Virus record (IMG/VR): IMGVR_UViG_3300020190_000383
Location: 1 to 22,468 of that record
DNA from: a virus
Length of the DNA stretch: 22,468 nt
Direction: 5' to 3' (one strand)
The notes under the pieces are model-generated. The model saw nothing but the letters and a program-made list of their open reading frames with translations. It ran no database searches and was not told the DNA's origin. Positions 18,351 through 22,135 of this stretch are shown here, in pieces (position 1 is the stretch's first letter; each line of letters begins with the position of its first letter). A program made the translations under genes and the position numbers.

Positions 18351-18359
18351 AGGTAAATG

Positions 18360-20489
18360 ATGGCTCAGACACTTACACTGGAAGAAGTTGAGCAGGCGAT
18401 GCGCGATCGTGGCATTCTCACCAGTACCGGTTCGGTTATGGATGAGAAAGGCACGACGCTTCAGGAGTTTAAGAATTTTGGCGAATCCTTGTTCAAGGGC
18501 GCGCCGATGGGCATTATTGACATTCTTGGCGGTTGGGGAAATCTGTACGATTACCTGAAAGAGAGCAAAGACCCGAGTGCGTTTTCATCCGCTGGCATTG
18601 CACGCGGTGTTAAAAATCTGACGGGCATTGATTTGCTGAAGATTCCCGGCTATCGAGGCGCGTATGAGTTTAGTTCTTCCGGTGCGCCTGCTGCCGCGTT
18701 AACTGCCGTCGGTGTGCCAGGATTATTTAGCCGCACTAAAACGGGGGTTGCTGGTGAATTCGGCGTTGGCGGCACAACAGGATTATTCTCAAGCCAAGTA
18801 GCGCCTGACAGCCCAGCCGCTCAACTTGCATTAGGCATGACGCCGTATGCTGCCAAAGCATCCTATCTTGGCGCGCAACGATTAATGACGCAACCTAACG
18901 TGAGAATGCCGTCGGTGCCGGAAACGCAATCACTATTGCGTGTTGGCCGTTTGACGCCAGGCGAAGCGGCGGTAGATCGCCCACAATTAGCTATCGAAGC
19001 CCGCGCAGAAGCATCGCCGCGCAGCGGCCAAGCGCCTATCGCATTCCGTCAAGGACAAGCGTTAGACGTGGAAAGTTTCCTTGATAAGCTGTTTCAGCGT
19101 TCGGCTGGCGCGCCGGTCACTTTGCAGCGCGCAGAAGCTACAACCAAAGCCGTCGTGGATGCGTTTAATAACTACGGCAAAGCGTTGTCGTCTAAGTTGC
19201 GCAGCGACGCCAATAAAGACTTTAAGGCCGCAAAAACAGCAGGCGGCATGGTTGATACCACACCAGTGGTAGATAAAGTGCGCCAGCAATTGGCCAGCAT
19301 TGCGCCAGAAGAACCCGGCTTTGCGCAACTGCGCTCGTCATTAGAAAAGATTTTGACGGAGTACGTTGAGCCAGGTAAGCCTGCGACCACAACGACATCA
19401 GCTGTGGTTGGCCCAACAGGTCAACCGGCCAGCGTTACTGTGACGCCAGCAACGCCAGACGTCATCAAATCAATCGATATCAAGCGATTGCAAGATAACT
19501 TGGCGTTGTGGGGCGACGCGGCGTATTCGGGCAAAGCCACAATTGGCGGCAGCAACATTTTTGAGGGTGTAGCGCCAGGCAAAGCTAAAGGCATTGCTAT
19601 GAATGTGCTGCGCGGCTTCAAAGAATCGCTGGATCAAGCAATCGCTAATAAAGTGCCGGGTGCCGATAAATTGGTTCAGGCGCGCGATAACTTTGCGACC
19701 AACATACGTCGTATCGAAGAATTTGCTGATCGTCCTTTAACCAGGGAATTTGATGTTGCCAACGTCACGAAGTTGGTGCCGGAAGAAGTACTGACGAAAC
19801 TTAAGAAACTGCCCGAGTCTCAGCGCAATTTCTTGGTTGATGTCATGCAGAAACACCCTAACCCGCAAGTCAATCTAGTGCTAGACACAATACGTCGCAG
19901 TACGATGGACGACATTCTAGTTAGCGGTCGCACGTCAGGGTCAGCATTAGACCCAAAAATAAGCATTGCAAAAACATTAAGAGCGCTGAAGAAAAAAGGC
20001 GACTTGGCGGCGTTGTTTCCTAACCCTGCCGATTTGCAAGAAGCGCAGTTAGCCATAAAGTACATGCAGCGCGTATTGGCAAAAGAAGCACCAGCAGGTA
20101 CGCCGGGTATCGGTGCAGGTACGGCATATAGTGCGTCACGCGGCGCAGGCGCGACGGCCACACAAGGTTTGGTTGCTAAAGAACTTGAATCTTTCGTAAC
20201 CGCGACGTTAATGAGCCCAGAAGCACTTTCCAAAGTGCTGTTTCAAGGCGATAACCGCAAACTGCTGCTTGACCTAGCTAAAGGTAAGACCAAAGGTGAG
20301 AAGGCGTACATTGCTGTCCGTAAACTTGGTGAAGGTCTTGCTATTACCGGCGCGCGTGGCGGCCCGATGGTTGGCACCGAGCGCCCGGAAGTTGAAGGTG
20401 AAGGTGCGATGGCGCCTGCGCCATCTGCTGGACCATCTATGCAAGAGATTGAGCAGGAGATGCGCGACCGCGGTTTATTGGAGGAATAA
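18360..20489 (+). CDS. Internal virion / DNA ejection protein (third of three), with matching motifs at both ends
   Basis: A 709-residue product from ATG 18360; the adjacent ATG 18357 is too close to AAAGG at 18349-18353. Residues 5-19 read TLEEVEQAMRDRGIL and residues near the end read MQEIEQEMRDRGLLEE, the same motif in two places. Residues about 35-60 hold a GAPMGIIDILGGWGNLYDYL segment, Gly-rich and partly hydrophobic. The middle (about 230-450) is charged helix with a Pro/Thr-rich gap (TTTTSAVVGPTGQPASVTVT), and residues 540-640 are helix/Ala-rich. No enzyme motif such as a transglycosylase is seen. It is the last large gene before the ejection-associated membrane protein. Internal virion identity is inferred from size, order and composition. 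Confidence 0.72.
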   Translation: MAQTLTLEEVEQAMRDRGILTSTGSVMDEKGTTLQEFKNFGESLFKGAPMGIIDILGGWGNLYDYLKESKDPSAFSSAGIARGVKNLTGIDLLKIPGYRGAYEFSSSGAPAAALTAVGVPGLFSRTKTGVAGEFGVGGTTGLFSSQVAPDSPAAQLALGMTPYAAKASYLGAQRLMTQPNVRMPSVPETQSLLRVGRLTPGEAAVDRPQLAIEARAEASPRSGQAPIAFRQGQALDVESFLDKLFQRSAGAPVTLQRAEATTKAVVDAFNNYGKALSSKLRSDANKDFKAAKTAGGMVDTTPVVDKVRQQLASIAPEEPGFAQLRSSLEKILTEYVEPGKPATTTTSAVVGPTGQPASVTVTPATPDVIKSIDIKRLQDNLALWGDAAYSGKATIGGSNIFEGVAPGKAKGIAMNVLRGFKESLDQAIANKVPGADKLVQARDNFATNIRRIEEFADRPLTREFDVANVTKLVPEEVLTKLKKLPESQRNFLVDVMQKHPNPQVNLVLDTIRRSTMDDILVSGRTSGSALDPKISIAKTLRALKKKGDLAALFPNPADLQEAQLAIKYMQRVLAKEAPAGTPGIGAGTAYSASRGAGATATQGLVAKELESFVTATLMSPEALSKVLFQGDNRKLLLDLAKGKTKGEKAYIAVRKLGEGLAITGARGGPMVGTERPEVEGEGAMAPAPSAGPSMQEIEQEMRDRGLLEE
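18388..18412 (+). repeat. 5' copy of a 25-bp direct repeat
   Basis: This 25-bp segment encodes VEQAMRDRG near the N-terminus of the 709-residue protein. It matches 20449-20473 at 22 of 25 positions, in the same reading frame. Confidence 0.75.
20449..20473 (+). repeat. 3' copy of the 25-bp direct repeat
   Basis: This 25-bp segment encodes IEQEMRDRG at the C-terminus of the same protein, 22 of 25 identical to 18388-18412, ending 14 bases before the stop codon. Confidence 0.75.
20480..20485 (+). promoter_or_regulatory. Shine-Dalgarno in front of a probable ATT start
   Basis: GGAGGA, a near-perfect anti-16S match, ends 4 bases before ATT 20490. No ATG, GTG or TTG in the right frame lies within reach; the TTG at 20491 is in another frame and meets a stop after three codons. 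Confidence 0.65.
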
Positions 20490-21185
20490 ATTGACCCGCT
20501 AACCCTTCTTGCTGCTGCCAATGCTGCGGTTGCGGCGGTCAAGAAGGGCTGCCAACTTTACAAGGACATCAAGGGCGCAAGCGGTGAGGTGTCCGAAGTA
20601 CTGAAGGACTTGCGTGCGCAGTTTGACAAGGTAACAGGCGGCAATCCAACCGTCGAGCAGAAGCAGCAGTACAACGCCGAGGTGCAGCGCGTTCAGGAGA
20701 TTGCCAAGGCCGATCCGAACGATGTCTACACTCAGATCGGTGACCAGCTGGGCGCGTTGATGGACAACTATGATGCGTTAAGCAAGGCGCTGTTGGCCGA
20801 ACAAGTAGACGGCAAGAAGGTTTACAAAGGAGAGGAAAGCATTGGCCGCCGGGCGCTGCGCCGTATCATCATTACGACACGATTGGATGCCATGCTGACT
20901 GAAATACGCGAAACGATGGTGTACCAGGCGCCGCCCGAGTTGGGCTCACTGTGGCACAAATTCGAGGAGATGTGGAAGACCATCGTCGAAGAGCAGGAGG
21001 CAGCGCACGCAGAGGAACTTAAACTAATTCAGATTGCCAGATGGCGACGCAAAAGAAAAATAGCGGAAATAAAAGCCAGAATAACTTGGATTTCGGCAGT
21101 CGTTTTCGTAATTCTGTGGGCGGTGGGGCTGATGTGGCTAACGACAAGAAGCGCGACGATGAAGACATCCCTTGGTCTTTACTGA
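20490..21185 (+). CDS. Ejection/tail-associated membrane protein with probable ATT start
   Basis: With start ATT 20490 the product has 231 residues. The first in-frame conventional start, GTG 20589, would remove 33 residues, IDPLTLLAAANAAVAAVKKG and the next 13, yet these match the N-terminus I recall for this family (PLTLLAAANAAV.., CQLYKDIKG). The open frame reaches back exactly to the stop at 20487, and GGAGGA sits 4 bases before ATT, so ATT initiation is the best reading. Residues 34-160 are helical (PTVEQKQQYNAEVQRVQEIA; YQAPPELGSLWHKFEEMWKT), residues 160-196 very basic (RWRRKRKIAEIKAR), and residues 198-219 a membrane span (ITWISAVVFVILWAVGLMWL). The basic stretch would stay in the cytoplasm. 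The 3' 145 bases are shared with the next gene. Homologues occur after internal virion proteins. Confidence 0.75.
   Translation: MDPLTLLAAANAAVAAVKKGCQLYKDIKGASGEVSEVLKDLRAQFDKVTGGNPTVEQKQQYNAEVQRVQEIAKADPNDVYTQIGDQLGALMDNYDALSKALLAEQVDGKKVYKGEESIGRRALRRIIITTRLDAMLTEIRETMVYQAPPELGSLWHKFEEMWKTIVEEQEAAHAEELKLIQIARWRRKRKIAEIKARITWISAVVFVILWAVGLMWLTTRSATMKTSLGLY
20503..20548 (+). other. Inverted repeat just after the probable ATT start
   Basis: CCCTTCTTG at 20503-20511 and CAAGAAGGG at 20540-20548 form a perfect 9-bp stem with a 28-base loop rich in GC and able to pair partly on itself. Its first base is 13 bases after the first base of ATT 20490. No T run follows, so it is not a terminator. Confidence 0.55.
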
Positions 21186-21346
21186 TTACCGTAATGGCCG
21201 TACTACTAACCTTTTTTGTATTACTTCCCGTCATGGCTTTTATGTACTGGGATATGTATAACGCAACACAAGCCGCGGTCAATGAGGTGCGAAAGATGCG
21301 CGAATTGCGGCGTGAAATTCAAGTTGAAAGGATGTATGGCCAATGA
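21041..21346 (+). CDS. Small inner-membrane protein, possible spanin-like partner
   Basis: A 101-residue product. Residues 1-44 are polar and disordered-looking (MATQKKNSGNKSQNNLDFGS), residues about 46-70 are one strong membrane span (WSLLITVMAVLLTFFVLLPV), and residues 71-101 are a charged helix NATQAAVNEVRKMRELRREI. This is an N-in membrane protein with a short helical tail that would face the periplasm, reminiscent of an i-spanin but shorter than typical Rz (about 150). The first 145 bases overlap the previous gene in another frame. No Shine-Dalgarno lies at the usual distance from ATG 21041; GAGGA is 24 bases away, so coupled translation is likely. The ATGA overlap to the endolysin puts it in the lysis unit. 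I recall comparable small proteins here in related phages. Confidence 0.7.
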   Translation: MATQKKNSGNKSQNNLDFGSRFRNSVGGGADVANDKKRDDEDIPWSLLITVMAVLLTFFVLLPVMAFMYWDMYNATQAAVNEVRKMRELRREIQVERMYGQ

Positions 21347-21963
21347 TTACTGAAGCCCAACTCCGTCAAATCATCCCGCAAAACAAGTACGTCGAATACT
21401 GGCACAAGGCGCTTGCGCAACTCTTTCCCGATTACGACATCAACACCCCGAAGCGCATGGCGGCGTTCCTGGCCCAATGTGCCCATGAATCGGGCGGCTT
21501 TACCGCTATCGTCGAGAACCTGAATTACAAACCTCAAGCGCTACGGCGCCTCTTCCCAAAATACTTTTCCGACGATGTCACAGCTAATCAGTATTGCGCG
21601 CGGCCTAACAAGCAAGAGGCTATTGCAAATCGCATTTATGCTAACCGTATGGGGAATGGCGATGAACATTCTGGTGATGGTTATCGTTTTCGTGGTCGCG
21701 GCCTTATTCAGCTTACTGGACGATCGAACTATCAGGCTTTTGCTGACAGTCTGGAGATGAATATCAACGACGTGCCGGAATACTTGGGTACGTTCGAAGG
21801 CGCGGCGCAAAGCGCCTGCTGGTTCTGGGAAACAAATAACCTGAACAAATGGGCAGACACGGGCGACATCAAAGAGCTAACCCGCAGGATTAATGGCGGC
21901 TACATTGGACTAGACGACAGGATCAAACACTATGACCACGCGCTTCATATTTTTGGTGCTTAG
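21343..21963 (+). CDS. Endolysin, GH19 (chitinase-like) lysozyme
   Basis: A 206-residue single-domain enzyme expected to cut the glycan strands of peptidoglycan at the end of infection. The GH19 signature is present: FLAQCAHESGGFTAIVENLN with Glu49 and Glu58 in the places of the catalytic acid and base, then LNYKPQALRRLFPKYF, and YRFRGRGLIQLTGRSNY lining the cleft, ending with the conserved NGGYIGLDDR loop. The core is complete and the length normal for Gram-negative phage endolysins of this family. There is no signal peptide or membrane anchor, so a holin is needed for release. It is ATGA-coupled to the membrane-protein gene before it and overlaps the lipoprotein gene by 32 bases. Confidence 0.95.
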   Translation: MITEAQLRQIIPQNKYVEYWHKALAQLFPDYDINTPKRMAAFLAQCAHESGGFTAIVENLNYKPQALRRLFPKYFSDDVTANQYCARPNKQEAIANRIYANRMGNGDEHSGDGYRFRGRGLIQLTGRSNYQAFADSLEMNINDVPEYLGTFEGAAQSACWFWETNNLNKWADTGDIKELTRRINGGYIGLDDRIKHYDHALHIFGA

Positions 21964-22135
21964 TATCGCTGGCGTTGTCTGGTTGGTCGGCTGCGAGGAT
22001 AGGTTCCGTTATCCCTGCCAGGACAACAAGAACTGGGGCAAGCCCGAGTGCCAGCGCCCGACCTGCGCGGTGACCGGTACCTGCCCCGACCAGCTGGTGC
22101 CTGCGGCTGACTTCAAACAGGAGGAACAAAAGTGA
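21932..22135 (+). CDS. Small lipoprotein, outer-membrane lysis candidate
   Basis: A 67-residue product with a type II signal peptide: MTTRFIFLVLSIAGVVWLVG then Cys21, a lipobox LVGC. The residue after the Cys is Glu, not Asp, so sorting to the outer membrane is expected. The mature 47-residue part has four more cysteines (29, 40, 45, 51) in EDRFRYPCQDNKNWGKPECQ and the following PTCAVTGTCPD. I recall this family next to phage endolysins. Its site and lipidation fit an o-spanin-like role, though the Pro content of Rz1 is missing and the Cys pattern suggests disulphides, so superinfection exclusion or envelope modification are alternatives. AGGA lies 10 or so bases before ATG 21932. It ends GTGA with the next gene. 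Confidence 0.8.
   Translation: MTTRFIFLVLSIAGVVWLVGCEDRFRYPCQDNKNWGKPECQRPTCAVTGTCPDQLVPAADFKQEEQK

Follow-up and report, generated by a model that had tools for sequence, protein, structure and literature searches.

A phage gene that probably starts at ATT lies beside the lysis genes of many freshwater phages and almost never uses ATG

In a tailed-phage fragment of 22,468 bases (the window, i.e., the whole stretch of DNA analyzed), which carries terminase and portal genes at one end, our analysis identified a gene at 20490-21185 that most probably begins at ATT. Genes with such a start are found beside the lysis genes of many freshwater phages, in which ATG is almost never used at the aligned position. 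Taken together, the ATT start, an initiation rate held low by selection, an alternation between start codon and Shine-Dalgarno (SD) strength and the avoidance of in-frame NTG codons make up a reading to which we assign a probability of about 0.7 (0.72).

Results

The ATT start site and its homologues

Direct reading of the site gave ...TTATT GGAGGA ATAA ATT GAC CCG CTA ACC..., and the features on which the analysis is based are as follows:

18357..20489, + strand: upstream gene, 710 aa, in the same frame as the ATT gene (ORF list); putative source of ribosomes for the ATT
20480..20484, + strand: Shine-Dalgarno GGAGG, 5 nt 5' of the start codon and inside the final codons of the upstream gene (direct reading)
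20487..20489, + strand: TAA, the stop of the upstream gene, abutting the start (direct reading and ORF list)
20490..20492, + strand: putative ATT start codon; among 222 distinct homologues, the column holds ATT/ATC/ATA 124 times, GTG 87 times and ATG 4 times
20490..21185, + strand: ATT gene, 231 aa, predicted all-helical with one membrane helix on the C-terminal side (translation, 21-sequence family alignment, AlphaFold2 model)
20493..20588, + strand: codons 2-33, skipped by gene calling from ATG/GTG/TTG (purifying selection, in-frame NTG avoidance)
20589..20591, + strand: first in-frame GTG, the start of a mechanical caller, judged not to be the real start (ORF list; first-NTG position variable among homologues)
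21041..21346, + strand: next gene, 101 aa, one membrane helix, ATG start, in another frame than the ATT gene (ORF list)
21343..21963, + strand: GH19-type endolysin (PHROG 181, E=1.1e-77; Pfam PF00182)

The preliminary description of this site had placed ATT 20490 right behind TAA 20487-20489, which is correct to the base, the TAA being the stop of ORF 18357-20489; it had also noted GGAGGA 4 bases ahead of the ATT, and this motif indeed occupies 20480-20485 with ATAA as spacer. The stop adjoins the ATT, and no in-frame NTG lies between it and the conserved N-terminus. The first in-frame ATG, GTG or TTG is, as described, GTG 20589, 33 codons on, and the expectation that automated calling would start there agrees with the mechanical ORF list, which gives 20589-21185 (198 aa); the ATT-initiated frame would encode 231 residues, beginning IDPLTLLAAANAAVAAVKKGCQLYKDIKGASGEVSEVLKD.

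A protein search of viral contigs yielded 589 related stretches, the best 80 of which were kept; ATT, ATC, GTG, GTT and TTG were seen at the aligned start of these best 80, and ATG in none of them (0/80). The homologue set, drawn from viral metagenome contigs, comprised 222 distinct genes after duplicate removal, with first codons ATT (108), GTG (87), ATC (14), ATG (4), TTG (3), GTT (2), ATA (2), CTA (1) and GTC (1), so that the orthologues with ordinary starts (GTG 87, TTG 3, ATG 4) carry them at the aligned position. In addition, we scanned the whole viral collection without bias, using the degenerate pattern xxx-DPLTLLA(A/T)AN in which codon 1 alone was varied. With ATG at codon 1, for which the scan was complete, it found 7 contigs, 4 of them from a remote, shorter family, against at least 119 contigs with ATH and at least 120 with BTN. 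Of the 4 contexts in which ATG genes occur, 3 show little or no SD.

These counts support ATT as an initiation codon, as far as a comparison of homologues can. A sequencing error at 20490-20492, which the preliminary description had named as a possible refutation, is effectively excluded because ATT/ATC/ATA occupies the column in 124 distinct genes on contigs from many separate metagenomes. Likewise, the suggested check for homologues with ATG at the site found it in only 4 of 222; ATT is therefore the state of the family and not a mutated ATG. In the collections searched, no cultured phage carries a gene of the ATT family, and a genome scan for the host gave one weak MAG locus.

Start codon and Shine-Dalgarno strength alternate

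The SD strength differs markedly between the start-codon classes, with a median anti-SD pairing energy of -9.3 kcal/mol in ATH genes vs. -2.75 kcal/mol in GTG genes (p=3e-19). The spacing is fixed at 5-6 nt, and GGAGG at 5 nt or GGAG at 6 nt is the rule in ATH homologues. The tree implies at least 35 changes from ATH to GTG or back, with ATG confined to 2 of its 156 tips. Among independent tree pairs, the SD follows the codon in the expected direction by 12.6 : 0.1 (sign test, median p=2.4e-4). As read from the aligned genes, this trade-off recurs over independent switches, and selection for a low, roughly constant initiation rate would be its simplest reading. It should be noted that the linkage between SD and codon may stem in part from exchange between phages at the 5' junction, and that a strong SD together with reinitiation could give moderate, not low, expression. 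Shared structural accessibility was rejected, the free energy of the start region being the same in ATH and GTG genes (p=0.32).

An alternative is that AUU works as an IF3 sensor like that of infC, the protein being made only when IF3 discrimination drops during infection, which would time the lysis module. AUU, AUC and AUA do form the class against which IF3 discriminates, as in infC and sigR (PMC5472188), and the ATT gene adjoins the endolysin. However, the IF3-sensitive class does not extend throughout the family: GTG, which like ATG and TTG is exempt from IF3 (PMC5472188), is the start of about 40% of the homologues (87/222), and the codon classes switch repeatedly on the tree, making this reading unlikely. 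These comparisons gave no sign of the infC-like feedback raised in the preliminary description; the GTG alternative points rather to a generally weak start.

Many GTG genes have an out-of-frame ATG overlapping the start (ATGTG), found in 42 of 68 GTG rows and 17 of 30 upstream contexts (expected from the upstream AT frequency: ~6.6%); L208, L039, L210 and L223 are examples. This ATG is possibly a decoy start, or a site of initiator slip. A +1-frame mini-ORF ending at CTAA was considered as a partner of ATGTG and rejected because it is equally frequent with and without ATGTG.

Geometry of the upstream junction

The distance from the upstream stop to the start in ATH rows (n=79) is 0 nt in 49, 3 nt in 23 and 1-2 nt in 6, and 98 of 106 ATT genes have an in-frame stop 0 or 1 codon ahead of the start. 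No ATG, GTG, TTG or CTG occurs between the upstream in-frame stop and the start in 103 of 106 ATT, 14 of 14 ATC and 2 of 2 ATA genes. Termination-reinitiation is enhanced by SD sequences and reduced by distance (PMC2268962), and the 0- or 3-nt geometry of 72 of the 79 ATH rows would suit such a mechanism, making coupling to the upstream gene a plausible feature of the family.

Codon 1 marks the exact end of similarity between homologues, and different clusters have unrelated DNA upstream of it. Moreover, in near-identical genes (e.g., L097/L298 and L093/L232) a change of start codon accompanies the change of upstream DNA, with the break at codon 1, suggesting that codon 1 is a frequent recombination junction between phages. 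In L096 and similar loci, which form a remote context cluster, ATC, ATA and GTG share an almost identical upstream context, AAGGAAATAAG/ATGAG; there, the start codons therefore interchange by point changes, without ATG.

The L097/L298 and L093/L232 pairs, with their different start codons behind unrelated upstream DNA, could also mean that ATT and GTG starts are unselected and are simply carried along with the upstream module. This explanation leaves the near absence of ATG over 30-38 upstream contexts unaccounted for, as well as the interchange of ATC, ATA and GTG within the single context AAGGAAATAAG/ATGAG, and we consider it quite improbable.

The shared frame of TAA and ATT and the nearby in-frame stop of most ATT genes would also be expected if ribosomes read through the stop and the segment were a C-terminal extension of the upstream protein. 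Yet the upstream genes are unrelated, with 38 upstream clusters for ATH alone, the upstream stop is out of frame in some ATH loci, e.g., GGAGGAGTAAGATT (L148) and AAGGAAATAAGATC (L096), and out of frame or spaced in many GTG loci, and the SD spacing points to initiation. TAA is also generally the least leaky of the stops. Readthrough is, in consequence, very improbable and effectively excluded.

The segment ahead of GTG 20589 is conserved and avoids NTG codons

Conservation of the protein starts at codon 2 (DPLTLLAAAN). Within ATT/ATC/ATA genes, pN/pS is 0.027 in codons 2-12 and 0.15 in codons 13-33, and synonymous sites are near saturation, so the stretch from ATH to the first NTG is protein-coding. 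The position of the first in-frame NTG varies among homologues, being as early as codon 4 in some and as late as codon 80 or later in others. Translation from GTG 20589 behind an accidentally open frame, although it would use one of the usual starts (ATG/GTG/TTG) and matches the mechanical ORF, has almost no chance and is effectively excluded, as the protein is most strongly conserved in codons 2-33 while synonymous change is free, the codon-34 GTG is present only in some homologues, and the SD at its fixed spacing belongs to the ATT. Homologues beginning at GTG 20589, the other refutation that had been foreseen, were not found: conservation is strongest in codons 2-12, and ordinary starts sit at the aligned codon. 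A start at ATT 20490 is by far the best explanation of the open frame and is strongly supported by these comparisons.

The same segment is depleted of NTG codons. Leucine is encoded by CTG or TTG in 6% of cases in codons 2-33 vs. 52% later, valine by GTG in 3% vs. 29%, and methionine accounts for 4 of 5216 codons within 2-33 vs. 3.1% later. At L/V/M positions, almost no NTG is seen in codons 4-37, and the NTG fraction, still 12% at codon 37, jumps to 67% at codon 38. The leucine NTG fraction in codons 2-33 vs. later codons of the neighbors is 45% vs. 51% (endolysin) and 56% vs. 51% (overlapping 101-aa gene), and G-ending Pro, Gly, Glu and Lys codons of the family are not depleted alike; a low Leu-NTG fraction was also seen in homologues of window gene 15698 (n=10 sequences). 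We read the depletion as probable avoidance of internal, truncated starts, to which relief of mRNA structure near the start may contribute. An RNA hairpin was rejected as a shared feature: the strong stem seen at 20503-20548 of the window does not keep its wobble pairs, and the family shows no excess over synonymous draws.

The annotation of one homologue, UOF77123.1 of MW202462.1 (L089:3001-3690), begins at a codon-9 ATG and omits the conserved N-terminus. The likely start of this gene is a GTG one codon ahead of the aligned CTA.

Neighboring genes, gene product and specificity of the start

The 3' end of the ATT gene, encoding its membrane-helix part, overlaps the 101-aa gene by 145 nt (21041-21185) in another frame. 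This arrangement is widely kept, the 101-aa gene adjoining the ATT-family gene in 293 of 294 loci with a median overlap of ~135 nt, and the GH19-type endolysin following in 197. A small lipoprotein-like ORF (21932-22135, LVGC lipobox) overlaps the end of the endolysin gene and may be an outer-membrane spanin-like part of a lysis cassette.

The product of the ATT gene is predicted to be all-helical (AlphaFold2 pLDDT 78), with a membrane helix at residues ~199-217 predicted by sequence. It matched no PHROG and no Pfam family above cut-off, and no PDB structure significantly, with nothing below E=0.4; by these same PHROG, Pfam and PDB fold comparisons, it showed no match to spanins, holins or other known lysis families. 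Its best structural relatives in a viral library are exclusively uncharacterized proteins of uncultured phages. A role in the lysis module is likely by position only, because the 101-aa gene overlaps it (293/294 loci) and the endolysin follows (197).

The unusual start is specific to this gene. In the same loci, the endolysin starts at ATG in 84 of 105 cases, at GTG in 16 and at TTG in 4, and never at ATT, and the overlapping 101-aa gene starts at ATG in 106 of 119; these start-codon controls cover the endolysin and the 101-aa gene, the start positions of other neighbors being imprecise (e.g., CTT, gene 22132). The arrangement is also much more frequent than chance would allow, as a scan of 3.16 Mb of loci showed. 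The scan looked for an ATH codon with a suitably spaced SD and a stop, without NTG, ahead of it, opening a frame of at least 80 codons with no NTG for 15 codons. With ATH, the scan returned 76 genes of the ATT family and 8 scattered others; with the control codon sets ACH, GTH, TTH and CTH, it returned no family genes and 2-17 scattered others. A genome-wide habit of ATT starts was accordingly rejected, the other SD+ATH candidates being scattered, without a conserved family and no commoner than those of the control codons. Both the neighbors' starts and the control-codon scan therefore indicate that the ATH start belongs to the ATT-family gene and not to the genomes.

Discussion

We propose that gene 20490-21185 is translated from ATT by fMet-tRNA, either by direct initiation or by termination-reinitiation, in which case the upstream gene (18357..20489) would feed ribosomes to the ATT; the strong SD in the last upstream codons and the stop abutting the ATT argue for initiation at AUU. 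The weak codon would be kept by selection, holding initiation of the membrane-anchored protein below the ATG level, and this low initiation could be reached by two routes, AUU/AUC/AUA with a strong SD or GUG with a weak SD. Avoidance of in-frame NTG over the first ~37 codons would prevent a truncated product. From the conservation, the start/SD trade-off, the NTG avoidance and the synteny, all read from the genomes themselves, we infer initiation at AUU, the coupling, low dosage as a selected trait and any lysis role. Most likely, the weak start and the upstream coupling keep the dosage of this membrane protein, encoded next to the lysis genes, low. More tentatively, and with the odds rather against it, the phage lineage may hold a layered initiation limiter at one set point, in which AUU/AUC/AUA goes with a strong SD and GUG with a weak one, the GUG often being overlapped by an out-of-frame AUG (AUGUG) as a decoy, and in-frame NTG is purged downstream. 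Such a limiter would control the dosage or timing of a lysis-region membrane protein and possibly be IF3-sensitive in AUU lineages.

Several cellular genes have comparable starts. The infC start is AUU in E. coli, AUC in Streptomyces and AUA in S. aureus (PMC5472188, PMC13009471), and infC resembles the ATT family in that an ATH start with low initiation is conserved over related genomes, in S. aureus also with an extended SD; it differs in being cellular and regulated by its own product, IF3, whereas the ATT family encodes a phage membrane protein and has GTG as an alternative state. In S. aureus, cvfC1 (AUU) and ccpN (AUA) likewise combine a non-canonical start with an unusually strong SD, both conserved across species, and in reporters AUU or AUA with an extended SD gave ~10% of AUG output (PMC13009471); these genes are, however, cellular and of one codon class, with starts proven by ribosome profiling, whereas that of the ATT family is supported by sequence comparison. 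Streptomyces sigR illustrates how a protein ratio can be set by a non-canonical start: this start is conserved and keeps the protein at a low level compared with its translationally coupled partner, and a canonical codon in its place leads to a misregulated system (PMC5472188). However, that start is GTC and IF3-repressed, unlike the AUU/AUC/AUA or GTG of the ATT family. The AUU start of E. coli pcnB limits translation (Binns and Masters 2002, as cited in PMC13009471), as proposed for the ATT family; pcnB is a single cellular gene and not a phage family. E. coli lacI has a weak start, GTG in 99% of genomes, that is selected for a low protein level (PMC11445065), but uses GTG only and no ATH starts. 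Avoidance of ATG, as expected of translationally limited genes such as pcnB and lacI, is also found in the ATT family (ATG in 4/222, vs. 84/105 for the endolysin). For pcnB, we know of no codon/SD alternation.

Our search of the open-licence literature found no report of ATT/AUU starts in phage genes, an absence that is weak evidence. The chemistry of non-ATG starts is known (infC, pcnB, cvfC1, sigR), but a phage family that keeps to such starts over hundreds of genomes seems to be unreported, and the family-wide alternation between start codon and SD strength seems to be new.

Textbooks treat AUU starts as rarities of a few cellular genes. The more than 200 phage genes described here form a natural series of repeated codon/SD trade-offs in which selection on initiation rate becomes directly measurable. 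A gene caller that accepts only ATG/GTG/TTG would truncate the protein in all ATT/ATC/ATA genomes and remove its most conserved segment; UOF77123.1, the sole annotated homologue examined, is also shortened. Finally, the ATT family offers a concrete test case for the part that IF3 and reinitiation may play in the timing of the phage lysis region.
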